A stretch of DNA of 26,074 bases from positions 1-26,074 of the IMG/VR virus record IMGVR_UViG_3300037189_002471. One strand, written 5' to 3'. Positions 2 to 16,970 of this stretch are shown here, in pieces (position 1 is the first letter of the stretch; the number at the start of each line of letters is the position of its first letter). The stretch comes from a virus. Below the pieces are notes generated by a model. The model ran no database searches. It was given only the letters and a program-made list of their open reading frames with translations, and was not told the origin of the DNA. A program made the position numbers and the translations under genes.

Positions 2-826
2 TCTCGCACGACTATTTGGCGTGACATGTCTGGTCTTGAGGATAAAGGGTTAGTTGACACCCACCGTACTAAGCGCAACCTGGGTAAGTTCTGGAAGAAC
101 AAGTACCAGCTTTTGTCTCCATGTTTCATTTCTGAAACTAAGGGGGTTGACATCGATGTTGAGGGTGTTTTACCATGTCTCACAGATGAAACATCAACAG
201 CTGATATAGATATTACTACTGATACAGCTGATACTACTAAAGTAAAGAATACTACGTATTCTTTAGGGGCTAGGGCCCCGAAAAAGAAGGAGGTTGCTGT
301 GGTTAATCGTTGGAAAGACGATGACGACAACATTGCGGGTTTTGGTTTGTTGGAGGACGAGGTTCAGGCTAAGGCTAAGCCAGTGTCGAAGAGAGACCCG
401 AAGACTCGTCGTCAGCGACCTCAGGAGGAGTGGACTGCTGCGGATGTGGCTTCAGAGTTTTCGGCTAGGGTTTACGACAAGATTCGTGGCATCCCAGGCT
501 TGGTGAACACTAACGCTTTGCGTGGTGCTTTGGCTGCTAACCGTTCACGGTTTGAGATGAACGCCACCTTGGAGATGGAACTGATGGACCGTTTCTTTGG
601 TGACGAGAGAAACCTTGCCTCGATTAAGGGTTCGCCTAAGAAAGCTCACGGCATCTTTTTGAACTTCATCACGATGAACGTTACGAAGGTTGTTGAGGAC
701 TTGGAGATGACCTCTGAGGATAAGGACGAGAATTACATTTACGCTTCGGATGGTAAGCGATTTGACAAATCTATGCCTGGTAGGAGAGACTTGGCAGAGT
801 ACGAAGAAAAGTTAAGGAGGGCTTAA
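2..826 (+). CDS. Winged-helix DNA-binding replication protein, 5' end outside the window
   Basis: The frame is open to the left edge. The codons before the first ATG (26) encode TTIWRDM, which fits the recognition helix of a winged-helix domain that continues as LEDKGLV and then a basic wing ending near YQLL. The true start is therefore upstream of the window and the ATG at 26 is internal. A Thr/Asp-rich, low-complexity linker follows (about residues 40-75 counted from 26), then a basic patch and a helical C-terminal domain of about 150 residues that matches no family I can name. The gene overlaps the DnaC-like loader by 1 nt (TAATG at 824-828). A wHTH-linker-helical layout directly before a helicase loader resembles phage replication initiators or DnaD-type proteins. 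That role is inferred; the DNA-binding domain is visible. Confidence 0.75.
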   Translation, partial: SRTTIWRDMSGLEDKGLVDTHRTKRNLGKFWKNKYQLLSPCFISETKGVDIDVEGVLPCLTDETSTADIDITTDTADTTKVKNTTYSLGARAPKKKEVAVVNRWKDDDDNIAGFGLLEDEVQAKAKPVSKRDPKTRRQRPQEEWTAADVASEFSARVYDKIRGIPGLVNTNALRGALAANRSRFEMNATLEMELMDRFFGDERNLASIKGSPKKAHGIFLNFITMNVTKVVEDLEMTSEDKDENYIYASDGKRFDKSMPGRRDLAEYEEKLRRA

Positions 827-1548
827 TGAGTTACGACGTTAGTAAGTTGTCACCGAACAAGAAACACTGGTTGTTGCGTGGCGCTAACATCCCCAGCCGT
901 TTTATCGGATTGGAGCCTAAGGACATTGCCGAGCGCACTGGCGGGTTCCCTGAAGACATTGACGTTTGGTTGGAGCGTGCCATTGACGGCGAGATTATCA
1001 AGCAGATTGGCGGACTGGGTCGCACCGGTGTTGGCTTGTTGTTTGATGGCGGTCCTGGTTTGGGTAAGACTACTCACGCTGTGACGGCTGCTATGGAGTT
1101 TGTCCGTATGCTGCCTGAGGACGACGAGAAGGCACGTGAGGTTTTGCAGATGAAACCTGACGACTACGGCATGAAGTGCCGCCCTATCTATTACATGACT
1201 TTCCCAGAGTTTCTGAGCCGCAAGAAGATGATGTTTGATGCGGAGCCTGAGACTAAGAAGTTGATGCAGCTGGAGATGGAAGGGTTCCATGGCCGTTGCA
1301 AGGAAGACAGTCTGAATGTTCGTGTCTTGGTCTTAGATGACCTTGGCAAGGAGTATGGTTCAGAGTATGACAACACATCATTTGACGAGGTGCTTCGTTC
1401 TCGTTATGATAAAGCACTGCCCACAATTATCACCACTAACGTGAATCGTGATAACTGGAAGAAACAGTATGGCGAGGCTATGGGCAGTTTCGCACACGAA
1501 GCATTTACTAGAGTACGTATTATAGGAGAGGACCTGAGGAGAGCATGA
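826..1548 (+). CDS. DnaC-like AAA+ helicase loader
   Basis: This is a 240-residue AAA+ ATPase of the DnaC/IstB type. The Walker A motif GGPGLGKTT is at residues 75-83, Walker B VLVLDDL at 167-173, the sensor-1 strand ending TTN at about 200-205, and an FTRVR segment near 227-231 suits the arginine-finger region. Loaders of this family use ATP to place the replicative helicase on single-stranded DNA. The position between a winged-helix protein and, three genes on, a DnaB-like helicase supports loader over IstB transposition helper, and no transposase is nearby. Start and upstream stop overlap as TAATG with AAGGAGG a few bases before. The end overlaps the next gene as ATGA. Confidence 0.9.
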   Translation: MSYDVSKLSPNKKHWLLRGANIPSRFIGLEPKDIAERTGGFPEDIDVWLERAIDGEIIKQIGGLGRTGVGLLFDGGPGLGKTTHAVTAAMEFVRMLPEDDEKAREVLQMKPDDYGMKCRPIYYMTFPEFLSRKKMMFDAEPETKKLMQLEMEGFHGRCKEDSLNVRVLVLDDLGKEYGSEYDNTSFDEVLRSRYDKALPTIITTNVNRDNWKKQYGEAMGSFAHEAFTRVRIIGEDLRRA

Positions 1549-1853
1549 GGAAAGAAGTAAAGATGGACATTGCCTGGAGAACAGTACAGCTGTTTATTAG
1601 TCTGGACGGAGTTGCAGAAGTCGAAGTTGACGCAGAGAACCACGAAAAAATCCGTTGTTCTTGCAAGAACTTCGTTGCAACCGCAAGGTGCCGCCACAGC
1701 AAGTACGTTAAGAACCGCATGAACGATGGCAACGGTCATTACGAAGTCCAGGTCCCTGAAGATGTAGATGACGACGAAGCCATTAATGCAATGGCAGACC
1801 CGATTAAGTGGCGCTCGTTTGTAATCAAGCACGGCGAGGTTGAGGTTCTGTAG
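1545..1853 (+). CDS. SWIM zinc-finger protein
   Basis: This 102-residue protein carries C38-S-C40-x8-C49-R-H51, the CxCxnCxH signature of the SWIM zinc finger, a fold known to bind DNA or protein partners. The rest is a short N-terminal beta-rich part and an acidic C-terminal tail. The start overlaps the loader stop by 4 nt (ATGA at 1545-1548) and a GAGGAGA ribosome-binding site lies just upstream. The gene sits between the helicase loader and the helicase, which suggests a role in replication or recombination, but the exact function cannot be read from the sequence. The motif is clear; the biological role is inference. Confidence 0.75.
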   Translation: MRKEVKMDIAWRTVQLFISLDGVAEVEVDAENHEKIRCSCKNFVATARCRHSKYVKNRMNDGNGHYEVQVPEDVDDDEAINAMADPIKWRSFVIKHGEVEVL

Positions 1854-2269
1854 TGCTCAATGGAGATATTTCTAACGAGACATCTCCACGCATTATTGTG
1901 GTGGTGGATGTTGTGGCCGATAGTTATGTTCAGGATAGTCGCAAACTTATGCGTACTACTCAGGAGCGTGTATTTAACGGCCTCAACAACCCAGCACTAT
2001 CTTACCTTTGGAACATCTCGTCAAAGTTCGGTCTATCAGTTGAGTTGGCTGGTTTTGAGAACGAGCTCTGGACAGAGGAACTTTTGGATAAGATAATGGA
2101 CAAGTTGGAACGGCGTGGTGGCAACCCCTTCAACTATTCCGAGGTTTACGCTAACATCGATGACTTCATCGGTGAACTGCCTTACAGGAGCAACCTGAGG
2201 GGCGTTATAGATTTAAAGGACAGAGTTGCTAGATACGGGTCTATTGGACTTGAGCTAGAGAACTTGTAA
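1853..2269 (+). CDS. Conserved-looking hypothetical protein in replication operon
   Basis: This is a 138-residue protein of no family I recognise. It starts with GTG overlapping the previous TAG by 1 nt (TAGTG at 1851-1855), with GAGGT upstream. A hydrophobic strand RIIVVVDVVADSY near the N-terminus resembles the first beta strand of an alpha/beta nucleotide- or metal-binding fold, but no complete motif can be seen. The remainder is mixed helix with many charged residues. It lies between the SWIM protein and the DnaB-like helicase in an unbroken operon, so it is probably expressed early with the replication genes. The CDS is well supported; the function is unknown. Confidence 0.75.
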   Translation: MLNGDISNETSPRIIVVVDVVADSYVQDSRKLMRTTQERVFNGLNNPALSYLWNISSKFGLSVELAGFENELWTEELLDKIMDKLERRGGNPFNYSEVYANIDDFIGELPYRSNLRGVIDLKDRVARYGSIGLELENL

Positions 2270-2286
2270 GACAACAGAGGGCAAAC

Positions 2287-3534
2287 ATGGCATACGATAA
2301 CGAATACCGCTTAGTCAGTAAGGTGATTGCTGACCGCAACATCGTTCCGGTTCTTGAGCGTGGCATCAAGGACGACTGGATTGTTGACGACGACCTCCGT
2401 CGAGTGTGGAAGTTTGTTCGTGAACACTACGGCAACTACCGTGAGGTACCGACAGCGGTCACGGTTGTAGACAACTTCCCCAACTTCAAGGTACTAAAGG
2501 TCGAAGATGCTATTGAGTATCTGATTGACACTATGGTGGCTTACCGCCGCCGTCTTCTGACCCGCAATGGTATTGAGCAGGTTATCTCTAAAGTTGAGAT
2601 GAACGACCACGACGGCGCTCTCAACGAGATGTCAAAGACAGTCACGATTGTTAATGACCAGGGCGTAGTTGGTACCACTCACGTAGATGTTACCGTTGAC
2701 CCAGACAAGTTCTGGGAACAGTATCAGGATGTTCAGAACAGCAAGTTGCTGGGCGTACCAACAGGGTTTGAGAAAATCGACGAGGCTACCGCAGGACTAC
2801 AGGGCGGACAGTTAGTTACTGTAATCGCCCCACCGAAGACCGGTAAGTCTCAGATTTGTTTGCAGATGGCGGAGAACGTTCACGCCGCAGGTCTAGTGCC
2901 TATGTTCCAGTCGTTTGAGATGAATAACCACGAGCAGACACAGCGTTACTTGTCGTTGAGTTCACACATCTCGAACGCCCGTTTCCGTAGGGGTAAGCTC
3001 CAGGCTGCCGAAGAAGACCGTTTGCTGCAGCGCCTAGACGACCTGAAGACAGAGAAACCATTCCACTTGGTTGACGCTGTTAACGGTCTGACTATCGACT
3101 CGTTAATGGCTAAGGCCGAGCAGTTGAACCCAGACATCCTGTTCGTCGATGGTGTATACCTGATGCTGGACCAGGTTACTGGTGAGGCCAACACCCCACA
3201 GGCGCTTACCAACATCACCCGAGGTCTCAAGCGTGTAGCTCAGAGACTGAACATCCCTATTGTTATTTCTACGCAGACTTTGTTGTGGAAGATGAAGGGC
3301 GGCAAAGTATCCGCTGACTCTATCGGTTATTCGTCCTCGTTCTTTCAGGACTCTGACGTAATCCTAGGTTTGGAACCAGTAGAAGAAGACGAGGAAATTC
3401 GTTTGCTGAAAGTTGTGCAGGCACGTAACTGCCCACCATCAGAAACTTCCATCACTTGGCGTTGGGACACCGGCTGTTTCCATGACGAGTCTAAGCAGGC
3501 CAACTGCAAGTTCTGCAGCCCATTTGGTAGATAA
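2287..3534 (+). CDS. dnaB: DnaB-like replicative DNA helicase
   Basis: This 415-residue protein is a RecA-fold, superfamily 4 helicase. The N-terminal part (to about 130) is a helical domain like the DnaB N-domain and linker. The motor begins with GVPTGFEKID, followed by Walker A APPKTGKS at 181-188, Walker B ILFVDG at 274-279 and the polar STQ strand at 328-330. It should unwind duplex DNA at the fork and work with the loader upstream and the primase directly downstream. A C-terminal cluster C397, H399, C407, C410 could bind a metal, an unusual tail for this family. All glutamine codons I inspected are CAG. The start has AGAGGGCAAAC in front of it; the stop overlaps the primase ATG by 1 nt. 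Confidence 0.92.
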   Translation: MAYDNEYRLVSKVIADRNIVPVLERGIKDDWIVDDDLRRVWKFVREHYGNYREVPTAVTVVDNFPNFKVLKVEDAIEYLIDTMVAYRRRLLTRNGIEQVISKVEMNDHDGALNEMSKTVTIVNDQGVVGTTHVDVTVDPDKFWEQYQDVQNSKLLGVPTGFEKIDEATAGLQGGQLVTVIAPPKTGKSQICLQMAENVHAAGLVPMFQSFEMNNHEQTQRYLSLSSHISNARFRRGKLQAAEEDRLLQRLDDLKTEKPFHLVDAVNGLTIDSLMAKAEQLNPDILFVDGVYLMLDQVTGEANTPQALTNITRGLKRVAQRLNIPIVISTQTLLWKMKGGKVSADSIGYSSSFFQDSDVILGLEPVEEDEEIRLLKVVQARNCPPSETSITWRWDTGCFHDESKQANCKFCSPFGR

Positions 3535-4502
3535 TGCGCCAGATTAATGTAGGCGAAGTTCTTGAGTCACTAGGGCTTGAGTACAGCGAACGTTCGGCCG
3601 AGGCTAACGCCCTGTGTCCAGCCCACTTCGCTAGAACAGGTAGGGAAGACCACTCCCCTTCCTGGTGGATAAACCTTGAGTCAGGTATGCACATCTGTTT
3701 TTCTTGCGGGTACAAGGGAAACATCCTTCACTTAGTTTGCGATGTTCTACAGTTCTACACCAAGACCGCCGAAGGTGTTGTCTACGACTACCGAGCAGCC
3801 GAAGAGTGGCTGGCTGGCAAGATTGAGGTCTCACCAGAACGGCTTCTGGAGATTGTTCGTGCTCTTCCAAACTATGTGGAGTCATACCCTAAGCCTGTTC
3901 CCATGTCCGAGGCACGCCTAGTGCTATTCACCGAGCCCCCTCAGGAAGCCCTAGACTCCAGAAACATTACGGCAGAGTCAGCCCAGGCTTACGGGGTTTT
4001 GTGGGACCCAAAGAAATCCGCTTGGGTTCTTCCACTGCGAGACCCGCACTTTAATGAATTGATGGGTTGGCAGGAGAAGGGTACAGTGCAGCGCACTTTC
4101 TTTAACCGCCCCACAGGGCTCCAGAAGTCTAAGACGCTGTTCGGGGTACAGAACCAGCAGGAAGACCTAGTAGTAGTCGTAGAGTCTCCCTTGGACTGCT
4201 TGCGGCTGTTCAGCGCCGGTTTTACGAGTGCCGTGGCAATCTGTGGGTCAACTCCTAGTGTGGAGCAGATTAGGCTCCTTCGTTACTCTGACCGCATCAT
4301 CGCTGCATTTGATACAGATACCGCTGGCAAGAAAGCTTCTAAAGAAATGCTAGAGTTTGCCCGTAAATACGGTTTAAATCTCTCGTATTTCAACTATGGT
4401 AGTACTGGTAAGAAAGACCCAGGCGACCTCACCGATGACGAGATTGCGTGGGGAATCCACAATGCAAAGTCGTCAGTACTCGGTGAAAAGGCGTATGTTT
4501 AA
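3534..4502 (+). CDS. dnaG: DnaG-type DNA primase (CHC2 zinc finger plus TOPRIM)
   Basis: This 322-residue primase has an N-terminal CHC2-type zinc site (C28, H31, C55, C58) for template recognition and a TOPRIM catalytic core with the glutamate in VVES (E217), the acidic pair in FDTDTAG (D260, D262) and a DPGD motif at 285-288. It would lay down RNA primers for the polymerase encoded downstream. It is shorter than bacterial DnaG and lacks a C-terminal helicase-binding domain of usual size, as is common in phages. The start overlaps the helicase stop (TAATG) with little Shine-Dalgarno sequence, suggesting translational coupling. The end overlaps the SNF2 gene by about 8 nt. Confidence 0.92.
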   Translation: MRQINVGEVLESLGLEYSERSAEANALCPAHFARTGREDHSPSWWINLESGMHICFSCGYKGNILHLVCDVLQFYTKTAEGVVYDYRAAEEWLAGKIEVSPERLLEIVRALPNYVESYPKPVPMSEARLVLFTEPPQEALDSRNITAESAQAYGVLWDPKKSAWVLPLRDPHFNELMGWQEKGTVQRTFFNRPTGLQKSKTLFGVQNQQEDLVVVVESPLDCLRLFSAGFTSAVAICGSTPSVEQIRLLRYSDRIIAAFDTDTAGKKASKEMLEFARKYGLNLSYFNYGSTGKKDPGDLTDDEIAWGIHNAKSSVLGEKAYV

Positions 4503-6060
4503 GGGCACACTAAAACCATACCAAGAAGAAGCAGTAGCAAAGATGGTCTCGATGCAGACCGTGCTTGTAGCGTACGAAATGGGTTTGGGAAAAACTCCTA
4601 TGACCATCGCTGCTGTAGAAACACTGAGAGACGCAGGGCAAGTTAAGCAAACTGTGCTAGTGCTTTGCCTTTCAAGTTTGAAATACCAATGGCAAAAGGA
4701 AGTCACCAAGTTTAGTGACTCCACTGCTTTAGTTATTGACGGAACCCCAAAGCAACGTCAATCACAATACGACATCCATACCGATTACGACTACGTAATC
4801 ATGAACTACGAACAGGTTGTAAATGACTGGGAAATCATTAAAGCTTTTACGTTTAGTGCAATCATTTGTGATGAAGCTACGGCTATCAAGGGATTCAAGG
4901 CTAAACGAGCTAAACGAGTTAAAGAAATTGCAAAAAGAATACCTATCCGATTCGCACTCACAGGAACACCGATAGAGAACGGCAAGCCTGAGGAAATCTT
5001 TTCCATCATGCAATTTGTCAACTCCCAAGTGCTGGGAAGGTTCGACATCTTTGACAAAACTTTTATCGTAAGAAACTACTTTGGCGGCGTCCAACGTTAC
5101 CGGAACTTAGAGTTGCTACACTCAAAGCTCCAACAGTTTTCCGTTAGAAAGTCTCAGAAAGACGAAGATGTTAAGCCTTACTTGCCTGACGCAATCTACC
5201 GAGAACCAATACTTGTTAAGTTAGATAGTAAATCCCAAAAGCTCTACAACGTAATTGCTGAAGACCTCAAAACAGTTTTGTCAGAGGCTCGTGATATGTT
5301 TGGTTCTTCGTTCAATGTGGCGTCACACTACGGTCAGCAGTACGACCCTGGGGACCCCGCTAACGAACTGCGGGGGCAAATCATGTCAAGAATTGGGGCT
5401 ATGCGTATGCTGTGCTCGGGGTTTAGCACTCTGGTTGCAAGCGTCGCTAACTTCGATGCCCATAATGGCAAGGGCAGCGCCTACATCCACTCGTTGTCGG
5501 ACAAGGTCAAGGAGCTCACCAAAGCCCCCAAACGAGACACTTTGATTGACTACCTGAAAGACCACCTAGACATTGACCCCAGTTACAAGGCTGTGGTATT
5601 CTCTAGTTATGTCACGTCAGTGTGGGACATTGTTGCTAACCTAGAAAACGCCGGATACATGGCGGTTGGATATACAGGAGAAATGAATGCCAAACAAAAA
5701 GAAGAAGCCAAAGTCAACTTTCAAGGAAGACCTGACATCCGTGTTCTTGTTTCTAGTGATGCTGGGGGATATGGCGTGGATTTACCTCAAGCAAATCTTC
5801 TCGTCAATTACGACCAACCGTGGTCGTCGGGACTAGCAGTTCAACGAAACGGTAGGATAAACAGGGCATCTAGCACCTGGCCAAGCATCACCATACAGGA
5901 CATACTAGTTCTTGACTCAATTGAACAACGGCAGTACGATATGTTAAAGCAGAAAAGCAACGTCGCTGGGGCCATCCTTGATGGTACCGGAATTAACGAA
6001 AAGGGCGGGGTTGACTTAACTGTTGGAAGTCTAATAGACTTCTTAAGTAAAACTAATTAG
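4495..6060 (+). CDS. SNF2-family DNA helicase/translocase
   Basis: This 521-residue superfamily 2 protein has motif I MGLGKT (29-34), motif II DEAT (126-129), motif III LTGTP (145-149), motif V near SSDAGGYGVDL (about 411-421) and motif VI QRNGRINR (440-447). Proteins of this family translocate on duplex DNA and remodel forks or displace bound proteins. The start is uncertain: ATG 4495 gives an 8-nt ATGTTTAA overlap with the primase stop, like other junctions here, and begins at the family core. ATG 4462 has GGGGA upstream and is the main alternative. Its glutamine codons are mostly CAA, unlike the CAG-only neighbouring replication genes, which hints at a separate origin. Confidence 0.9.
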   Translation: MFKGTLKPYQEEAVAKMVSMQTVLVAYEMGLGKTPMTIAAVETLRDAGQVKQTVLVLCLSSLKYQWQKEVTKFSDSTALVIDGTPKQRQSQYDIHTDYDYVIMNYEQVVNDWEIIKAFTFSAIICDEATAIKGFKAKRAKRVKEIAKRIPIRFALTGTPIENGKPEEIFSIMQFVNSQVLGRFDIFDKTFIVRNYFGGVQRYRNLELLHSKLQQFSVRKSQKDEDVKPYLPDAIYREPILVKLDSKSQKLYNVIAEDLKTVLSEARDMFGSSFNVASHYGQQYDPGDPANELRGQIMSRIGAMRMLCSGFSTLVASVANFDAHNGKGSAYIHSLSDKVKELTKAPKRDTLIDYLKDHLDIDPSYKAVVFSSYVTSVWDIVANLENAGYMAVGYTGEMNAKQKEEAKVNFQGRPDIRVLVSSDAGGYGVDLPQANLLVNYDQPWSSGLAVQRNGRINRASSTWPSITIQDILVLDSIEQRQYDMLKQKSNVAGAILDGTGINEKGGVDLTVGSLIDFLSKTN

Positions 6061-6069
6061 GAGGGCCTA

Positions 6070-6513
6070 ATGGCAAAACGCATCGAAGAAGAAATCCGTC
6101 CAATTGTCACCCCAGATGACATTGCGGGCCAGGTAAAGGAATATCTTTACGTAAAGAAGAACATCGACCAGATGGAGACTCGCTCAAAGGAGCTTCGTGA
6201 AAGACTGTTCTCTCACCTTGATGAAGACGGTTACGAAGACGACAAGGGAAACATCCAGCTTGAACTTGACACAGACGTTGACGGCATTGTTCGCCTAGAG
6301 AAGCAGCGTCGTGTTACTCGTAAACTAAACGAGCCGAAGGCTGACGAGATTCTTTCAGAACTCGGATTGAAAGACGAGATTTTTGTCTTGACTCCAGTTC
6401 TTGATGAAGACAAGTTGATGGCTGCTTTCTACGAAGGCAAGATTACGGAAGAACAGCTAGACGAAATGTTCCCATCGAGCGTCGTCTGGGCATTAAGGAC
6501 TTTGAAGAGCTAG
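6070..6513 (+). CDS. Hypothetical protein with coiled-coil segment
   Basis: This is a 147-residue acidic protein with a long charged helix from about residue 18 to 50 that looks like a coiled coil, then a short beta section around DKGNIQLELD and a helical C-terminus. I do not recognise the family. A strong GGAGGG site just before the ATG (6061-6066) supports the start. It lies between the SNF2 helicase and the MerR-like protein, in the replication operon, so a helper role in DNA metabolism is plausible but not shown by any motif. Confidence 0.75.
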   Translation: MAKRIEEEIRPIVTPDDIAGQVKEYLYVKKNIDQMETRSKELRERLFSHLDEDGYEDDKGNIQLELDTDVDGIVRLEKQRRVTRKLNEPKADEILSELGLKDEIFVLTPVLDEDKLMAAFYEGKITEEQLDEMFPSSVVWALRTLKS

Positions 6514-6514
6514 A

Positions 6515-6991
6515 ATGACTATTCGTGGCGAAGCTGACATCCTCAAGTCATTTGAGGGGTTAGACCGTGTTCCTGGGTCTAAACAGAAGCGCCGTGAACC
6601 TTCTCAGCTTTCAGAAAAACGTAAAAAGAAAGCAATGGGGGAGACTAACGGCTGGGATTCAGACCCAATCGTTAAGTCTGTCAAAGGAGTCGAGACCGAG
6701 CTCTTTACCATCAGCGCACTTGCGTTGGCTTTGGAAAAAGAGATTGTGACTATTAGGCTCTGGGAGAAGAAGGGGTACATCCCTAACGCTCCATACCGCT
6801 TGCGTTCTAAAAGTTTAAATGGTAAAAAAGTAAATGGTAATCGTGTTTACACACGAGAGCTGATAGAGATTGCTATTGAGGAGTTTGCAAGTCGTAGACT
6901 TCTTGGTTCCGCTCGTGTAGAATGGAAAAAGCATGAAGACCTCACAGAGGCGTTAGTTCGTCGCTGGAAGGAAAAAACAGAGAGTCAATAG
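6515..6991 (+). CDS. MerR-like helix-turn-helix DNA-binding protein
   Basis: This is a 158-residue basic protein. After a charged, probably disordered N-terminal 60 residues, the segment from about 64 to 115 has the MerR-type winged-helix pattern: FTISALA, a second helix ending IRLWEKKGYIP, then a wing and RVYTRELIE. This arrangement binds DNA. No C-terminal ligand- or metal-binding domain typical of full MerR regulators is present; a short basic helical tail closes the protein. It could be a transcriptional regulator or an origin- or recombination-associated DNA-binding protein. Only one base separates it from the gene before, and the Shine-Dalgarno sequence is weak. Confidence 0.75.
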   Translation: MTIRGEADILKSFEGLDRVPGSKQKRREPSQLSEKRKKKAMGETNGWDSDPIVKSVKGVETELFTISALALALEKEIVTIRLWEKKGYIPNAPYRLRSKSLNGKKVNGNRVYTRELIEIAIEEFASRRLLGSARVEWKKHEDLTEALVRRWKEKTESQ

Positions 6992-7036
6992 ACCTCCGAC
7001 AACCGCCGATAAGGCCGATTAGAAAGAAGAAACACC

Positions 7037-7687
7037 ATGGTTAATAACCCAACCATTGATGCTGACCAGTACCTTACTGAAGACAGCGTTGACGCCAAGC
7101 CAAAGCATGGCACCACTGTACAGGCTGGATGGGAAGCAGCATCTGCATTCCTAAAGCCAAAGGAAAAGAGCAACGCCTACGCCACGGACTTTAAGTTCTC
7201 GGAGCAGGCACAGCTTGTTCGTTTCCTCGATGACGCACCGTTCATGGTTTATGAGCAGCACTGGATTGACCGTGAAGGACGCAAGTCTTTCGTATGTCTC
7301 GGTGACGAGTGCCCTCTATGCACCATTGCCGGAGACAAGCCTCGTGCTCGTTTTGCGTTTAACATCCTTGCTTTTGCGGATGGAACCCCTGAAGTACAGA
7401 TTATGACTGTACCTATTACCATGGCACGCCAGCTACAGGCTGCCAGCGATGACCCTCGTCGTGGACCGCTGACTAAGTACTACTGGTCAGTATCACGTCT
7501 AGGCATGGGCCGTGACACTCAGTACACCCTTGAGCGTGTACGTGCCACTGACCTTGCTGAAGAGTGGGAGTTGGATGCGGACGACCTTGACGCTGTTGCG
7601 GCCAAGGCTGTGAAGTACGACACCAAAGCAATTTACATCAGCCCTCGTGAAGAGTTGCTTGACGTTGCTCGTGCGCTAGTCGCTTAA
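7037..7687 (+). CDS. Single-stranded DNA-binding protein, gp32-like
   Basis: This 216-residue protein resembles the OB-fold core of T4 gp32-type SSBs. H75, C87, C92 and C95 in the segment around CLGDECPLC give an H-C-C-C set like the zinc site of gp32, followed by a basic and aromatic stretch (PRARFAFN) that suits a strand of the OB fold. The N-terminal 40 residues are polar. It would coat single-stranded DNA during replication and recombination. A 45-base spacer precedes it and a strong hairpin follows 11 bases after the stop, so its expression level may be set separately from the polymerase. Family assignment rests on the motif pattern; the match is not close over the whole length. Confidence 0.7.
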   Translation: MVNNPTIDADQYLTEDSVDAKPKHGTTVQAGWEAASAFLKPKEKSNAYATDFKFSEQAQLVRFLDDAPFMVYEQHWIDREGRKSFVCLGDECPLCTIAGDKPRARFAFNILAFADGTPEVQIMTVPITMARQLQAASDDPRRGPLTKYYWSVSRLGMGRDTQYTLERVRATDLAEEWELDADDLDAVAAKAVKYDTKAIYISPREELLDVARALVA

Positions 7688-7697
7688 TCCTTTTCCA

Positions 7698-7728
7698 AGG
7701 GGGCTGGGGTTTTGTGCCTCAGCCCCCT
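7698..7728 (+). terminator. Strong hairpin after SSB gene, possible terminator or attenuator
   Basis: The arms 7698-7709 and 7717-7728 pair over 12 bp with a single G-U wobble and a 7-nt loop. Five consecutive G-C pairs make it very stable. It starts 11 bases after the SSB stop and ends 21 bases before the polymerase ATG. No run of T follows on either strand, so it is not a canonical intrinsic terminator; stems without U-tracts are described as terminators or mRNA-stability elements in actinobacteria. It probably lowers read-through or stabilises the SSB message. Confidence 0.6.
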
Positions 7729-7749
7729 ACAATCTTCATTAGGGCAAAC

Positions 7750-9750
7750 ATGAACATAATTACAACACCAGAACAGTTAAAAGAGTTCGTAGATTTTTAT
7801 TCCAAAGTAGATGCGTTCGCATGGGACACTGAGACCATTGGCGAAGACCGTCTATACCCAGTAATCAATGACGTTTGCTGGATTTCATTTGCGACGGATG
7901 GTCGCACTGACGTTATCCCTATGGGCCACCCTAATGGTGAACTTGAAGGGTACGATAAGCCACTTCTACTCACCGGTCAGCGCCGTCTAGCTGAGGGCAA
8001 GCCTATCCTTGAGTCGCACTACTCAAAGGACGAGCGCAAGTGGACACCTAAGTTTGGTGAGGCTCCTAAGCAGCTGACACCACGTCAGGTATTTGACGCC
8101 ATCAAACCAATCATGTTTGGCTCAGCCCTAAAGATTGCCCACAACGCCAAGTTTGATTTGAAATCAATCGCTAAGTACTACGGCGGCACTATCCCTGCTA
8201 AGCCACACTTTGATACCTTGATGGCGGCGTTTGTCGTAAACAATCTGAACAAGTTTGACCTAGGACTTGCTGCGTGTGTAAAGCGAGAGCTCGGCATCGA
8301 GGTTGAGAAGGGCGTAGGAGAAAACGTCGCACTTCACTCGTTTAGTGACGTGGCTAAATACTCAGGCATCGACGCCGAGGTCACCTGGGCACTCTACAAG
8401 GCGTTAGAGCCAAAGATTGTGGGCAACCTCAAGAAGGTTTGGAAACTAGAGATGGATGTCCTACCAGCCTTGTGTGACATGGAGCTAACGGGCGCATACA
8501 TCGACCAGGACGCCCTAGAGATTCTTGCTAAAGAGATTGAGCGTGGCAAGACTGCTGCCGAGGCTAAGTGCTACAAGGCCGCTGGTAAGGCGTTCGCCAT
8601 TAACTCTGTGCCAGCAAAGCAGACCTTGTTGTTTGTTGGCGAGAACGGAAAGAAACCCCGCATAACCCCTAACCCCAAGTTTAAGAACACACTCACCCCT
8701 AAGGGTGCTGAGGCTAAGAAGAACGGTGTCGAACTTACTTCTGCCCACTTCTCTGTGTCCGCTGATGCTCTTGAGTATTACCGTGGTAAGGACGACTTGG
8801 TGGATGCAATCCTGGAGTACCAGGACTTGAACAAACTTATGACCACTTATGTAACCCCGTACACGGGTGGGTCTGTTAAGCGCACCACTAACGGTAAAGA
8901 GAAGATTACCCAGAAGAAGTCGCTGCTAATCAATGGACGTGTACACACTAACTTTAAAGCTCACGGAGCAGAGACAGGCCGTTTCTCTTCTTCGGAACCC
9001 AACCTCCAGAACATCCCCTCGTCTGGAGAATACGGCAAGTTGGTCCGCAACCTGTTTGTAGCACCCCCTGGCTACAAACTGGTTGTGGCCGATTACTCGC
9101 AGATTGAGCCAAGAATTATTGCTGCGTTCTCTGAGGACCCTGTGCTTTGTGAGAACTACCGAACTGGTGGCGACGTGTACACCACGATTGGTGACACTAT
9201 GGGTGTAGACCGCAAGGCAGGTAAGGTTCTTGTGCTAGCCATCTCGTATGGTGTTGGGCCTGACAAGATTGCGTCATCTATTGGCTGTACTTTGGCAGAG
9301 GCAAAGGATTTGTTGAGCCGTTTCGAACAGAAGTTTTCTTCAATTGAGAAGTATAAGGCGAAGGTAATTCGTCAGGCAAAACAGGTTACTCCCATTCCTT
9401 TTGTCGAAACAATGTTTGGCCGTCGTCGCTACATTCCAGAGTTGAATTCTAAGGACTTCACGATGCTAGGTAGGGCCGAGCGCCAGGCTTTCAACACCAT
9501 GATTCAGGGCTCTGCAGCAGACTTGATGAAGTTGGCTTTGGTCCGTGCTCACTCTTGCTTTACTGACGAGCCAGATGTTAATCTTATTCTTACAGTTCAC
9601 GACGAACTTGTAACTATTGCACCGGAAGATAAGGCGGAAGAAGTGGCGGAGGCGATTCGTAATTCTATGGAGGGCATCAATCTTCAGCAGATTACTGTGC
9701 CGTTGATTGCCGATGTCAAGATTGTCGATAAGTGGGGCGAGGCTAAGTAA
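7750..9750 (+). CDS. polA: Family A DNA polymerase (Pol I type) with 3'-5' exonuclease
   Basis: This 666-residue replicative polymerase has an intact proofreading domain: Exo I WDTET (D26, E28), Exo II HNAKFD (131-136) and Exo III Y204-x3-D208. The polymerase has motif A VADYSQIEPR (D448), motif B R488-x3-K492-x3-L496-x3-Y500 and motif C VHDE (H617, D618, E619). No 5'-3' exonuclease domain is fused to it. The residue equivalent to E. coli Phe762 is leucine (L496). A longer frame begins at GTG 7714, but that lies inside the hairpin, whereas ATG 7750 has AGGGCAAAC before it, the same context as the helicase start. It overlaps the next gene by 1 nt. Confidence 0.95.
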   Translation: MNIITTPEQLKEFVDFYSKVDAFAWDTETIGEDRLYPVINDVCWISFATDGRTDVIPMGHPNGELEGYDKPLLLTGQRRLAEGKPILESHYSKDERKWTPKFGEAPKQLTPRQVFDAIKPIMFGSALKIAHNAKFDLKSIAKYYGGTIPAKPHFDTLMAAFVVNNLNKFDLGLAACVKRELGIEVEKGVGENVALHSFSDVAKYSGIDAEVTWALYKALEPKIVGNLKKVWKLEMDVLPALCDMELTGAYIDQDALEILAKEIERGKTAAEAKCYKAAGKAFAINSVPAKQTLLFVGENGKKPRITPNPKFKNTLTPKGAEAKKNGVELTSAHFSVSADALEYYRGKDDLVDAILEYQDLNKLMTTYVTPYTGGSVKRTTNGKEKITQKKSLLINGRVHTNFKAHGAETGRFSSSEPNLQNIPSSGEYGKLVRNLFVAPPGYKLVVADYSQIEPRIIAAFSEDPVLCENYRTGGDVYTTIGDTMGVDRKAGKVLVLAISYGVGPDKIASSIGCTLAEAKDLLSRFEQKFSSIEKYKAKVIRQAKQVTPIPFVETMFGRRRYIPELNSKDFTMLGRAERQAFNTMIQGSAADLMKLALVRAHSCFTDEPDVNLILTVHDELVTIAPEDKAEEVAEAIRNSMEGINLQQITVPLIADVKIVDKWGEAK

Positions 9751-10992: not shown

Positions 10993-11209
10993 CAATTGGA
11001 CAGACGAACAATGGATGGAAGATGTCATCCGCCATTACCAGGACGGTTATCGTTTTGGTAATGCAGACGGGCTGCTAAAAGCCGCTCATGTTATTGAAGA
11101 TTTTGTGCACAGGCTTATTCTTCAGGGACGAGCTGAGGCTAATCTAGACGAGCTGCTTCTTCTATCCGAGACACTCACCATTACTAAGGAAGACGACACA
11201 GATGATTAA
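10976..11209 (+). CDS. Small acidic helical protein (TTG start)
   Basis: This is a 77-residue, acidic, mainly helical protein with no recognised motif. The TTG at 10976 is the best start: AGGAGA at 10965-10970 lies five bases upstream, and no ATG occurs in frame near it except the one at 11012, which would remove the first helix. It overlaps the nuclease-like gene by 17 nt and the recA-like gene by 8 nt. Placement directly before recA suggests shared expression, but I cannot assign a role. Confidence 0.65.
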   Translation: MTNSGSNWTDEQWMEDVIRHYQDGYRFGNADGLLKAAHVIEDFVHRLILQGRAEANLDELLLLSETLTITKEDDTDD

Positions 11210-12248
11210 TGCAGAAGCAAAAAAGATTATGGCCGCTATCAATAAGCGGTTTGGAGAAAACGTCGTAGTAGTAGGGGAGAACATTCGTGGGGACCTTATC
11301 AGACGCATCACTACTGGTTCTACTACATTTGATTACTGTCTAGGCGGAGGATTCCCAGCAAATCAGTGGAACGAACTTATCGGTGAACCATCGCACGGAA
11401 AGACTGCAATTGCTCTCAAGACTATCGCTGCTAATCAGAAAATAAACCCAGAGCACACCACCGTATGGGTTGCTGCCGAACAGTGGGTTCCTGAGTACGC
11501 AGACATGTGTGGCGTGGACACCAGCCGAGTTATTGTTGTAGAAACCAACATTATGGAAGAGGCTTACGATGCAGTTATTGCTTTTGCGGAGTCCAAGGCT
11601 GTTGACGCCATCGTTATCGACTCCCTCCCTGCTCTAAGTCCAGCTCCTGAGATGGAGAAGAACATGGACGAAATGACAGTCGGGCGTGGTGCACTCCTGA
11701 CCAACAAGTTTTTCCGAGTAGTGGGCGCTGCCATGAAACGTTCATTGGTGGAGGACGAACGCCCAATACTCGGATTAATCATTAACCAGTACCGCATGAA
11801 GATTGGTGTGATGCACGGAGACCCACGCACTACCCCAGGCGGAGAAGGCAAGAACTATGCGTTCTTTACTCGCTCAGAGGTACGTCGTGACGAGTGGATT
11901 GAGGTTGGCTCAGGAAACAACAAGGTCCGTGTAGGCCAGCGAATCAAGATTAGGACTATCAAGAACAAGACCGCCCCACCACAGCGTGTAGCGTACATCG
12001 ACTTCTACTTCTCCCCGCACAGCATTTACGCTGCCGGTGACTTTGACACTGCTAAAGAAACCGCTTCTTTGGCTATTATCAAGGGTATTGTGGACCGCAA
12101 GGGTGGCTGGTACTATTACGGAGAACGCAAGTGGCAGGGCTCCGAAGGTCTTGTCAACTCTATCCGTGAAGAAGTAGACTTGCTCGAAGAACTCAAGGAT
12201 AAAATCTTGAGCACCCCAGATAGTTTTGTAGGAGGAACCGATGAGTAA
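11202..12248 (+). CDS. recA: RecA-like recombinase
   Basis: This 348-residue protein has the RecA core: Walker A GEPSHGKT (61-68), a catalytic glutamate in VAAEQW (E93), Walker B AIVIDSL (136-142) and the L2 region beginning INQYRMKIGV (about 184-193) followed by the TTPGG turn. RecA polymerises on single-stranded DNA and drives strand exchange with ATP. The C-terminal part (from about 270) is shorter and different from bacterial RecA. It lies upstream of a Cas4-like exonuclease and two resolvase-type genes, fitting a phage recombination-dependent replication or repair pathway. The stop overlaps the next start by 8 nt as ATGAGTAA. Confidence 0.92.
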   Translation: MINAEAKKIMAAINKRFGENVVVVGENIRGDLIRRITTGSTTFDYCLGGGFPANQWNELIGEPSHGKTAIALKTIAANQKINPEHTTVWVAAEQWVPEYADMCGVDTSRVIVVETNIMEEAYDAVIAFAESKAVDAIVIDSLPALSPAPEMEKNMDEMTVGRGALLTNKFFRVVGAAMKRSLVEDERPILGLIINQYRMKIGVMHGDPRTTPGGEGKNYAFFTRSEVRRDEWIEVGSGNNKVRVGQRIKIRTIKNKTAPPQRVAYIDFYFSPHSIYAAGDFDTAKETASLAIIKGIVDRKGGWYYYGERKWQGSEGLVNSIREEVDLLEELKDKILSTPDSFVGGTDE

Positions 12249-12453
12249 AACTAAAGAAGAGTACATGGCGCAGATTGAAGAAGATTATGCTGCGTATGTT
12301 GAGGCGCAGAACCAGGCTTTTCGTAGAGAAGGAGCCGAAGAGCTTCGTATCGGAATCCTGCGCAGTCTCGAATCGGCTAAAGAGTTTGCCAGCACAGAGA
12401 TGCTCCTTGCTTTTGACAAAGCAATTGCTTACGTAAAGCAGGCAACCATCTAA
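12241..12453 (+). CDS. Small helical hypothetical protein
   Basis: This 70-residue, strongly helical protein is rich in Glu, Ala and Lys and has no cysteine or catalytic motif. GGAGGA lies just before the ATG, which overlaps the recA stop by 8 nt. The stop overlaps the following ATG by 1 nt. It may be a small binding partner of recombination proteins; this is suggested by position only. Confidence 0.65.
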   Translation: MSKTKEEYMAQIEEDYAAYVEAQNQAFRREGAEELRIGILRSLESAKEFASTEMLLAFDKAIAYVKQATI

Positions 12454-12785
12454 TGAAGTCCGAAGGTCAGAGGCAGTCTCAGAAGCATGAAAAGCGTATT
12501 GCTAAAGCCATTGGTGGAAGCACTACCGCAGCTTCTGGGGCCTTCTGGTCTCGCAAAGGCGACGTCCGCAACAACGAACTGCTAGTTGAACACAAGTGGA
12601 CGGGCAAGAAGTCTAAAACTATTCAGTCTGCAGAGCTGAAAAAAATAACCAATGAGGCCATTATGGATGGTCGCACACCGATATTCGGAATCCATCTAGA
12701 CGGAGAAGACTATGTGATTCTTCTGGAAACCGACCTATTTGAAATGTGGAATAAGTTAAATGAGTCTTCAGAACCTACTTCCTAG
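12453..12785 (+). CDS. Hjc-like PD-(D/E)XK nuclease, putative Holliday junction resolvase
   Basis: This is a 110-residue basic protein. An N-terminal helix with KHEKRIAKAIGG supplies the conserved glutamate, GDVR supplies the aspartate and LLVEHKWTG supplies the ExK pair. The order E, D, ExK and the short length match small archaeal-Hjc-type and phage resolvases that cut four-way junctions. The S/G-rich loop before GDV is also typical. It follows recA, where a junction-resolving enzyme makes sense. A RuvC-like protein is encoded 4 kb downstream, so this one may act on other branched or damaged DNA. Confidence 0.7.
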   Translation: MKSEGQRQSQKHEKRIAKAIGGSTTAASGAFWSRKGDVRNNELLVEHKWTGKKSKTIQSAELKKITNEAIMDGRTPIFGIHLDGEDYVILLETDLFEMWNKLNESSEPTS

Positions 12786-13134
12786 TGACGGTGACCTTGA
12801 GTGGTATACTGACGCTGCCTGTTGGAGCGTTGACGAAGATGGAAACTTCCTTGTTGATGTAAACATTTTCTTCCCACCAAGAGACAAGAACCTTTACAAG
12901 AAGATTGCTGATGAAGCAAAGACCTATTGCTTTGGACCAAATAAGAGTAGTGTTTGTCCAGTACGTGCAGAGTGTCTTTGGACTGCTGTAAACCAAGACA
13001 TAAAGAACGGAATCTGGGGCGGCCTAAGCCACAGGGAACGTAATGCTCTTGTGCGTAAGTGGCGTAAGAACTATAAAGAGACCATGACGTTGAAGGAATA
13101 CATCTTTCAGCTAGATAAAAAGGAGAACAAATGA
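12760..13134 (+). CDS. WhiB-family Fe-S transcription factor with expanded cysteine spacing
   Basis: This 124-residue protein has the WhiB hallmarks: C21, C57, C66 and C72, then the GIWGGLS turn and a basic tail (RERNALVRKWRKN). The stretch CPVRAECL is typical. WhiB proteins bind a 4Fe-4S cluster and, with the principal sigma factor, alter transcription; phage copies are known to act against host WhiB function. The usual CxxC between the second and third cysteine is Cx8C here because of about six extra residues. The start overlaps the nuclease gene by 26 nt and has only a weak ribosome-binding site. The tail may bind DNA. Confidence 0.9.
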   Translation: MSLQNLLPSDGDLEWYTDAACWSVDEDGNFLVDVNIFFPPRDKNLYKKIADEAKTYCFGPNKSSVCPVRAECLWTAVNQDIKNGIWGGLSHRERNALVRKWRKNYKETMTLKEYIFQLDKKENK

Positions 13135-13997
13135 CCGTACCAAAGACTGAGCTAAGAAAGTTCCTAGACGCCAAGGCTAAGCCTGCTCGTCTGTTGGGTG
13201 ACATTGAGCGCCACCTACTCCAGCGACCAGTGGGCGACCGTAGCACTACGGTACTGCACCCATCTGAAATCATCAAGAAAGACTTCTGTAAGCGTGGCTC
13301 GTACTTCCTACTGAAGGGCCACACCAAGATTGCAGAAAAGCCACCGCTACGTCTACAGAACATCTTTGACACTGGTCACGCCATCCACGCTAAGTGGCAG
13401 CGTTACTTCCAGGAGATGGGCGTTCTATACGGCCGCTTTACTTGTGTGGCCTGTGACTTTTCTTTGTTTGGCTTAGGTCCAGTAACTTGTCCAAGTTGCA
13501 GCAGAAACACAATGGAGTATCGTGAGGTTACCCTGCACGACGACGCCTTGCGTATTAAGGGCCACACCGATGGTTGGGTAAAGGGCATCGGTAACGACTG
13601 CCTAATTGAGATTAAGTCAATTGGTCCAGGCACTATCCGTGCAGAAGCACCTAACCTGATGATGGACGCAGACGGCGACTTCATGAAGGCTTGGGGCAAC
13701 GTTCGCCGCCCATTCCCTAGCCACATCCTTCAGGGACAGATGTACCTAGAGCTGATGGACCGCATGGGTGTACGGGACGACAATGACGAACCTATCAACG
13801 AGATTGTGTTCCTATACGAGTTGAAGGCTGACCAGTCCTACAAAGAGTTCTCAATTAAGAGAGACTTTGAGTTGGTTCGCCACATTTTCGACAAGGCTAA
13901 GTTTGTAGTGGACGCAGTTGAGGCAGGGATTGCCCCAGAGTGCAACAACAACCCGGGCAGCACTTGCAAGGACTGTGCGCCGTATAAGGAGGACTAA
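13131..13997 (+). CDS. Cas4/RecB-like exonuclease
   Basis: This 288-residue PD-(D/E)XK nuclease belongs to the Cas4 group. The active site is GHTDGW (D147) with E160-I-K162, and a Q201-x3-Y205 motif follows. The Fe-S cysteines are split as in Cas4: C53 in DFCKRGS and C271, C279, C282 near the C-terminus. A second cysteine set, C105-x2-C108 and C120-x2-C123, forms an extra zinc ribbon between the N-terminal helices and the catalytic core. Such proteins resect DNA ends to give single strands for RecA. AAAAGGAGAACAA precedes the ATG and the overlap with whiB is ATGA. There are no CRISPR repeats nearby, so a recombination role is favoured. Confidence 0.88.
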   Translation: MTVPKTELRKFLDAKAKPARLLGDIERHLLQRPVGDRSTTVLHPSEIIKKDFCKRGSYFLLKGHTKIAEKPPLRLQNIFDTGHAIHAKWQRYFQEMGVLYGRFTCVACDFSLFGLGPVTCPSCSRNTMEYREVTLHDDALRIKGHTDGWVKGIGNDCLIEIKSIGPGTIRAEAPNLMMDADGDFMKAWGNVRRPFPSHILQGQMYLELMDRMGVRDDNDEPINEIVFLYELKADQSYKEFSIKRDFELVRHIFDKAKFVVDAVEAGIAPECNNNPGSTCKDCAPYKED

Positions 13998-14455
13998 TGG
14001 GAGCTTTAGAAAAATTTGCTGGTTGGGGTATCCACTTCAACAAACCAAGCGATGAACAGGTTACCCTTCCAGCAGACATTACCGCTATTGCATCTGAGGA
14101 GTTAGGCGAGTTGTTTACACGTCTGACTGCCTGGACGGATTACATCAACTCTCAGTTGGTTATGGCACAGTTAGAGGAACGAGCAATTCTCAAGAAGAAA
14201 GACTTTGCCGAGAACACCATGCTAATTAAGCGAATGGGCGCTGGTGTAAAGGGCGAACGTGTAACTACGGTCAAGGCAGAGATTGCTGTTCACCAGGACA
14301 TCGTGGACCTTGACAGAGATTACGAAGAAAAGTACGCTTATCGTAAGTTGGTGGAGATGCTACTAACAAACCATGAGCGTGACCTATCTCTCGTTAGTCG
14401 TGAGATTACTCGTCGCTCAAACGACTCCAAAGCGTTACGGAAGGAATATCTTTAG
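13997..14455 (+). CDS. Helical hypothetical protein next to Cas4-like nuclease
   Basis: This is a 152-residue protein made almost entirely of charged helices, with likely coiled coil from about 95 to 150. No cysteine pairs or nucleotide-binding motifs are seen. AGGAGG lies just before the ATG, which overlaps the nuclease stop by 1 nt, so the pair is probably made together. A role as partner of the nuclease or in annealing is possible from position, but I recognise no family. Confidence 0.7.
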   Translation: MGALEKFAGWGIHFNKPSDEQVTLPADITAIASEELGELFTRLTAWTDYINSQLVMAQLEERAILKKKDFAENTMLIKRMGAGVKGERVTTVKAEIAVHQDIVDLDRDYEEKYAYRKLVEMLLTNHERDLSLVSREITRRSNDSKALRKEYL

Positions 14456-16263: not shown

Positions 16264-16390
16264 GAAATACATGTGCACAGGTTGTTACCGCACCGAAGGA
16301 AACGACAACGGAGCAGATTACTGCGACGAGTGTGCCTCATACAAGTATTTTGCTTGGGTAGAAGACGACGAAGACACTTACTATGAGTAA
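16256..16390 (+). CDS. Tiny zinc-ribbon protein
   Basis: This 44-residue protein has C7-x2-C10 and C23-x2-C26, a minimal zinc ribbon, followed by an acidic tail EDDEDTYYE. A longer frame upstream exists, but ATG 16256 sits directly after the AAAGGAGAGAACAA leader (16243-16256), so this start is favoured. It overlaps the RuvC-like gene by 8 nt as ATGAGTAA. The function is unknown; size and acidic tail suggest a protein-binding factor. Confidence 0.6.
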   Translation: MAEKYMCTGCYRTEGNDNGADYCDECASYKYFAWVEDDEDTYYE

Positions 16391-16970
16391 AGAAAAGGTG
16401 TTTGGGGGCAACCTCAAGCCAGGACCAGTGGCGATAGGCATAGACCAGTCGCTCACTGGTTTTGCGATAACTATCTTAAACGTAGACGCTCCTGACCAAT
16501 TCAACACCTGGGTATACAAGTCTGACTATCGAGGCGTCCAGCGATTGGACGACATCAGCAAATGGTTAACAGCCAAGCTGAGAACCGTAGAAGATGAGTA
16601 CATCCAAGACGTGGCTATGGAAGGCACGGTCCTGGCCAGCCAATCTGCGCTAGTGCTAGGCGAACTAGCCGCTACCGTCAAACTTACCCTGTGGTTGTAC
16701 TTCAGGGATTACGACCACCAAGACCACCTCAGAACCCCACTCCAAATCCCTCCAATGACCCTGAAGAAGTACGCTGCAGGCAAGGGCACCGCTAAAAAGC
16801 AGGAGATGCTGATGCAGATTTACAAGCGTTGGGGCATCGAATTTAATGACGATAACGCAGCAGACTCCTACGCACTAGCCAGGCTGGCTTCCGGTGCTGC
16901 CCTGGGGGCCATAGAGACCTCAATAGTTGAGCAAATAAAAGACCCCAAATACCGAGATTCTGTGGATTAA
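16383..16970 (+). CDS. ruvC: RuvC-like Holliday junction resolvase
   Basis: This 195-residue protein has the RNase H-fold catalytic acids of RuvC: D21 in IGIDQSLTGFA, E80 in VAMEGTV, and D157 and D161 in DDNAADSYALARL. The conserved block KYAAGKGTAKKQEM before the last acids also matches RuvC. It would resolve four-way junctions before packaging, or debranch concatemers. It ends the compact early-type operon; the next gene is separated by 60 bases. Glutamine codons are a mix of CAA and CAG, unlike the CAG-only recA and polymerase genes. Confidence 0.9.
   Translation: MSKEKVFGGNLKPGPVAIGIDQSLTGFAITILNVDAPDQFNTWVYKSDYRGVQRLDDISKWLTAKLRTVEDEYIQDVAMEGTVLASQSALVLGELAATVKLTLWLYFRDYDHQDHLRTPLQIPPMTLKKYAAGKGTAKKQEMLMQIYKRWGIEFNDDNAADSYALARLASGAALGAIETSIVEQIKDPKYRDSVD

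Follow-up and report, generated by a model that had tools for sequence, protein, structure and literature searches.

The window, by which we mean the whole stretch of 26,074 nucleotides of viral DNA analysed here, carries on its plus strand a recombination cassette in the order RecA/UvsX-like recombinase (11202..12248; PF00154, 158.7 bits; phrog_97), small ORF, Holliday junction resolvase (12453..12785; phrog_2002, 5.4e-22), WhiB (12760..13134), Cas4-type exonuclease (13131..13997; phrog_2506 exonuclease, 2e-32) and a further ORF (13997..14455). The start of whiB is overlapped by the resolvase frame over 26 bases, and its stop by the exonuclease frame over 4 bases (ATGA). The last ORF gave tblastn matches, and its counterpart in the Streptomyces phages Alone3 and GiJojo, where it likewise comes next, is annotated as SSB or DNA-binding protein. 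The Cas4-type exonuclease is rich in cysteine, with CVACDFSLFGLGPVTCPSC inside and CNNNPGSTCKDC at the end, and may itself hold a metal or Fe-S site adjoining whiB. A replication module at 826-9750 and 16383-16970 comprises a DnaC-like loader, a DnaB-like helicase, a primase, a helicase, an SSB and a DNA polymerase, and it also includes a second, RuvC-like Holliday junction resolvase besides the one at 12453.

The whiB gene encodes a WhiB-like (Wbl) protein of 124 residues (translation of 12760-13131), which covers all 65 positions (1-65) of the Pfam Whib profile PF02467 and scores 54.5 bits (cut-off 23.6). It also has matches to phage WhiB families of the PHROGs collection (phrog_472); a search of NCBIfam gave no usable match. 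The cysteines are arranged as C21-x35-C57-x8-C66-x5-C72, followed by GIWGG. In solved Wbl structures the second and third cysteine form a CX2C pair, and when the window WhiB is aligned to solved WhiB proteins, a gap of six residues falls exactly between these two. The first presumed cluster ligand is C21 (12820..12822) and the second C57 (12928..12930), from which the eight-residue loop FGPNKSSV (12931..12954) leads, in place of the usual two residues, to the third ligand C66 (12955..12957); the five residues PVRAE then separate C66 from the fourth, C72 (12973..12975). The first-pass annotation had reported this Cx8C spacing next to CPVRAEC and GIWGG, and translation confirmed its positions and counts. 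Its view of the protein as a phage WhiB variant with a genuine insertion between two presumed ligands likewise agrees with the PF02467 match and the alignment gap. That C57 might be non-homologous to ligand 2 was considered and rejected: the canonical helix-2 cysteine is aligned with that of EAKxYC, and no alternative cysteine is available.

Three further features surround the ligands. W15 (12802..12804) aligns with the conserved N-terminal Trp of WhiB1-like proteins (W3 of WhiB1), which is part of the sigma interface according to the pertinent part of PMC10245118; the aromatic patch FFPP, conserved in WhiB proteins, lies at 12868..12879; and the GIWGG turn (residues 84-88; 13009..13023) is the second Wbl signature as defined in passages of PMC6282962 and PMC10245118. 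In an alignment of 27 diverse insert-bearing members (A2), W15 is found in 27 of 27 proteins, and C21, P39-P40-R41, Y46, C57, G59, C66-P67, C72-L73, G84-I85, G87-G88, S90 and R92-E93-R94 are invariant or kept. The long C21-x35-C57 spacing, compared with about x27 in most relatives, is due to about eight extra residues in the segment between the first cysteine and FFPP (WSVDEDGNFLVDVNI; window 12823-12867). This extension is confined to near relatives, mainly L001 and L126-L130, and is a second, younger insertion within the same cluster domain.

Four invariant cysteines are part of published Wbl descriptions. The window WhiB has four cysteines, GIWGG for G[I/V]W[G/A]G after the fourth of them, and the profile score and predicted fold of the family, and judged by every defining feature testable here, it belongs to the Wbl family. 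With eight residues between the second and third cysteine it departs from the canonical CX2C of Wbl classes I-V. CX2C is the usual spacing, yet it is not among the Wbl-defining features in the passages of PMC6282962 and PMC10245118 that characterize the family; therefore, Cx8C excludes the window WhiB from the canonical classes but not from the family.

Occurrence of the Cx8C loop

The first two relatives from a search of viral contigs, 94% and 57% identical to the window WhiB, both have an eight-residue loop, and the 94%-identical copy, which lies on a separate contig, encodes this loop too, with silent nucleotide changes in it. Loop length is kept in relatives down to about 45-60% identity. 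Wider scans, with a script run over the fetched loci, brought the total in environmental phage contigs to 95 distinct WhiBs with an insert. The insertion is shared, a point that the first-pass annotation had proposed to check by alignment with phage and bacterial WhiBs. The loop has eight residues in 88 of these proteins, nine in three, ten in one, thirteen in one and fourteen in two. Within the eight-residue loops, position 2 is Gly without exception (88/88), position 1 is F, L, Y or W in 86 of 88, position 4 is D or N in 71 of 88, and position 5 is Gly in 62 of 88. Among near copies of the window WhiB dN/dS is 0.04-0.06 (about 0.05), and because of this low ratio we regard the gene, on the evidence of its sequence, as being under purifying selection for a functional protein.

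The IMG/VR proteins with this spacing (L001, L126, L127, L129, L002 and many more), all from uncultured phages, belong to the same family and share the loop, the cassette and a C-terminal SHRERNALVRKW-type motif, with identities to the window WhiB from 94% (L001) down to about 40-45%. With the Streptomyces protein L272 (see below) as query, the cultured Streptomyces phages GiJojo, pSt2308, Alone3, LuckySocke and BRock were retrieved. The WhiBs of four of them, BRock (NC_048650.1), GiJojo (PP725410.1), Alone3 (OR725492.1) and pSt2308 (PV588686.1), resemble the window WhiB in having an eight-residue loop between the second and third cysteine with Gly at position 2 (CHGTADGRPC, CHGTDDKRPC, CHGSSDGRQC). 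They are about 35-40% identical to it in the aligned part, and they differ in lacking FFPP and a Trp at the usual place and in having CPLL where the window has CPVR. These proteins carry the plain database label ‘WhiB’, and no published account of a CX8C spacing in WhiB was found in the open-access literature. Cx8C members are thus already deposited as WhiB, and the spacing is apparently without a published description.

How common is the spacing among annotated WhiBs? In a sample (not a census) made up of the 80 rows listed first for a single DNA pattern, CPV[R]...GxxWGG with any spacing, 16 of 80 viral WhiBs were Cx8C and 64 CxxC, 63 of them directly and one CRCC sequence after reclassification on inspection. 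In contrast, about 42 WhiBs from bacterial genomes (L262-L303) were nearly all CxxC, with one Cx3C (L282) and one Cx8C (L272). The rarity assumed in the first-pass annotation therefore does not extend to the sampled viral WhiBs, and annotated Streptomyces phage WhiBs also have the loop, but it holds for the bacterial WhiBs read, whose single case lies in a phage-like RecA-WhiB-Cas4 locus.

This bacterial case, with the loop CNGTNDGIVC, comes from Streptomyces xanthochromogenes (G001:C8:241828-242160). It is flanked on either side by relatives of RecA and the Cas4-type exonuclease, and because of this RecA-WhiB-Cas4 arrangement it is probably phage-derived, likely a prophage or phage contig; the locus was absent from the 60 other genomes sampled in the family. 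A scan of genome contigs for close bacterial relatives yielded only one Streptomyces WhiB, which is CxxC, and among the best 30 matches of a profile search of 394 Actinomycetes genomes all were CxxC with the sole exception of L282. The latter, from bacterial genome G118, reads CQTRC; three residues separate its second and third cysteines, which is a slight deviation from CX2C on a bacterial chromosome. When genomes were scanned with a strict DNA pattern for Cx8C, 0 of 396 matched; this does not prove absence, because only sequences with CPV[R] can satisfy the pattern, and the Cx8C gene already known from G001 (CPLR) was missed. No match was found among the PLSDB plasmids. Among the bacterial WhiBs read, Cx8C is not common. 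For phages, the sequences identify the loop as a conserved trademark of a large phage-borne Wbl branch and not a one-off; the idea that it is an oddity of one protein is not borne out, given a large conserved group with the loop Gly in 88 of 88 and all four cysteines kept.

Gene order, origin of the insertion and second WhiB copies

The gene slot is nearly constant. Among loci with enough flanking sequence, a resolvase precedes the insert-bearing whiB in 90 of 91 and an exonuclease follows it in 78 of 79, and the same resolvase-WhiB-exonuclease order is found in the cultured phages GiJojo, Alone3 and BRock. In the phage collection, matches to the exonuclease and resolvase of the window are essentially limited to these Streptomyces phages. 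Because the neighbours are constant across loci, the long loop, as read from the sequences, marks an orthologous gene of the recombination cassette. The window WhiB has both marks by which we delimit this group, namely a C-x-G loop of about eight residues and the resolvase/Cas4-type exonuclease slot, and we refer to the subfamily as recombination-cassette Cx8C WhiB. The sole deviating locus in these counts, L089 (12776-13336, minus strand), has other neighbouring genes and encodes a WhiB in which a loop of 14 residues (NGRPATSRDPGDAP) separates the second cysteine from the third.

In a tree computed without the loop residues, a single supported clade (21 rows, SH-aLRT 96) unites the environmental insert proteins, and the Streptomyces-phage group together with L272 forms a second cluster. 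A single clade uniting both is not rejected (p-AU 0.52; 87 usable columns). The gene order common to both and their C-x-G motif argue for one origin, but 87 columns cannot prove it. The insertion in L089 may be independent, though placing all insert proteins in one clade is likewise not rejected.

At least one further WhiB is present in 22 of the 26 IMG/VR contigs that carry a Cx8C gene, and all further copies readable by motif are CxxC (10/10). On the 91-kb contig of L001, the nearest relative of the window WhiB, the second copy (G804:35323-35526) lies about 17 kb from the Cx8C gene; given this distance, a second WhiB of the present phage may lie outside the 26-kb window, which is possibly too short to include it. 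Most of the second WhiBs (on the L001 contig, and L314-L317, L320, L321, L330, L332, L337 and L338) lack the N-terminal Trp near the first cysteine that is kept in the Cx8C form. Multiple whiB copies are known from freshwater actinophages, in accounts whose pertinent passages do not mention cysteine spacing (PMC6802176, PMC10914622). The presence of whiB suggests an actinobacterial host (PMC10202952), and by analogy with the literature on such phages the habitat may be fresh water.

Predicted structure and possible function

The four cysteines of WhiB1 sit on helices 1, 2 and 3 (PMC5741622), and from this placement the insertion would lengthen the connection between helices 2 and 3. According to an AlphaFold model (input alignment of 27 sequences; mean pLDDT 75, and a moderate value of about 70 for the loop), helices span residues 43-58 before the loop and 69-78 after it, with C57 at the end of helix 2 and C72 in helix 3. 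The model superimposes on WhiB3 from the WhiB3:SigA4 complex (8cwt_A) with Z 8.4 and 2.2 Å over 73 residues, and on WhiB1 from the WhiB1:SigA4 complex (6onu_G) with a Foldseek probability of 1.00 and a TMt of 0.76. The window WhiB is therefore predicted to fold like a Wbl protein, with the loop that joins helices 2 and 3 accommodating the extra residues. For WhiB1 and WhiB3, PMC10245118 reports that the N-terminal Trp, the aromatic FF patch and the GIWGG turn matter for binding sigma. Their counterparts are conserved in the window WhiB, which has W15, F37/F38 and W86 as contact-type residues. Fold, four cysteines, N-terminal Trp, FF patch and GxWGG are thus common to the window WhiB and M. tuberculosis WhiB1 and WhiB3 in complex with sigma-A region 4 (6onu/6ono, 8cwt/8cyf); the latter differ in having CX2C between the second and third cysteine and in being bacterial regulators with their own DNA-binding motifs. 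The suggestion of the first-pass annotation that the protein might be an inactive sensor is not supported, given the shared insertion, the low dN/dS and the conservation of the WhiB1/3 contact residues.

We hypothesize that the protein is a functional, sigma-binding [4Fe-4S] phage Wbl transcription factor, belonging to a distinct and conserved subfamily in which the inter-ligand loop is lengthened, and from sequence and model we hold this to be likely. The four cysteines would still hold the [4Fe-4S] cluster, and the six extra residues would bulge out as a Gly-containing turn with the ligands staying in place. Such a bulge is possible because helix 2 terminates at C57 and the stretch leading to helix 3 starts at C66, and it agrees with the tolerance of relatives for 9-14 loop residues. 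The holo-protein would bind region 4 of the principal sigma factor of the host, as WhiB1, WhiB3 and WhiB7 do, and thereby steer or block host RNA polymerase during infection, and the loop would probably provide a lineage-specific surface at the cluster edge. Because its reading frame overlaps those of recombination genes, whiB is probably co-transcribed with them and would be made early to mid infection. Against this proposal, members of the BRock type have no Trp at the usual place, the model has only moderate confidence in the loop, and the gene neighbourhood could point to a role in recombination instead of transcription.

Could the C-[FLYW]-G-x-[DN]-G motif conserved in the loop give the protein a new property, be it a cluster with altered tuning or an additional contact with protein or DNA at the cluster? 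Each phage would then have two functionally distinct Fe-S regulators, of which the Cx8C form ties the timing of host transcription to the recombination module or acts inside that module with the neighbouring exonuclease. We offer this as a speculative extension that has perhaps a modest chance of being correct.

The loop might alternatively alter the metal site, which would then hold zinc, a [2Fe-2S] or a labile cluster, and the protein would bind DNA in its apo or zinc form instead of acting as a sensor; this corresponds to the variant ‘stable or inactive as a sensor’ of the first-pass annotation. Four cysteines with a wide Cx8C spacing also fit zinc sites. Moreover, apo-Wbl proteins bind DNA in vitro, the WhiB of phage TM4 included, as reported in parts of PMC6282962 and PMC3390391. 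However, the rest of the Wbl cluster pocket (W15, FFPP, GIWGG and C66-x5-C72) is kept, the predicted fold matches sigma-bound holo-Wbl structures, and the tolerance of loops of 9, 10, 13 and 14 residues fits an outside bulge better than a re-built site, which makes an altered site unlikely.

An Fe-S accessory role in the recombination cassette, with the Cas4-type exonuclease, the resolvase or RecA/UvsX and no longer mainly as a sigma-bound transcription factor, would account for the nearly invariant resolvase-exonuclease slot with its overlapping reading frames across distant phages, and the second WhiB elsewhere in the same phages could handle transcription. Phage operons are, however, often mixed, the sigma-contact residues are still conserved, and the window WhiB contains no domain other than Wbl; we consider such a role quite improbable. 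That sequencing or assembly introduced the 18 extra bases by mistake, or that the gene is decaying, can hardly be credited, since the equal loop length of 88 distinct proteins, encoded on many contigs, and of the proteins of cultured phages, the dN/dS of about 0.05, and independent copies including the 94%-identical one with silent loop changes all speak against it.

A large, conserved phage branch in which the spacing is broken and all else is kept lends itself to testing what in the cluster pocket is needed for redox sensing and sigma binding. Most of these phages have a second WhiB that is CxxC where it was read, which allows both forms to be studied side by side in a single infection, and the cultured Streptomyces phages with the loop make the Cx8C WhiB experimentally accessible now. 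The nearest studied phage case is WhiBTM4 of mycobacteriophage TM4, also a phage-borne Wbl, which we set beside the window WhiB by description. It is highly similar to host WhiB2 (as stated in part of PMC6282962), and it represses host whiB2 and blocks septation, according to passages of PMC8612146 and PMC6282962.
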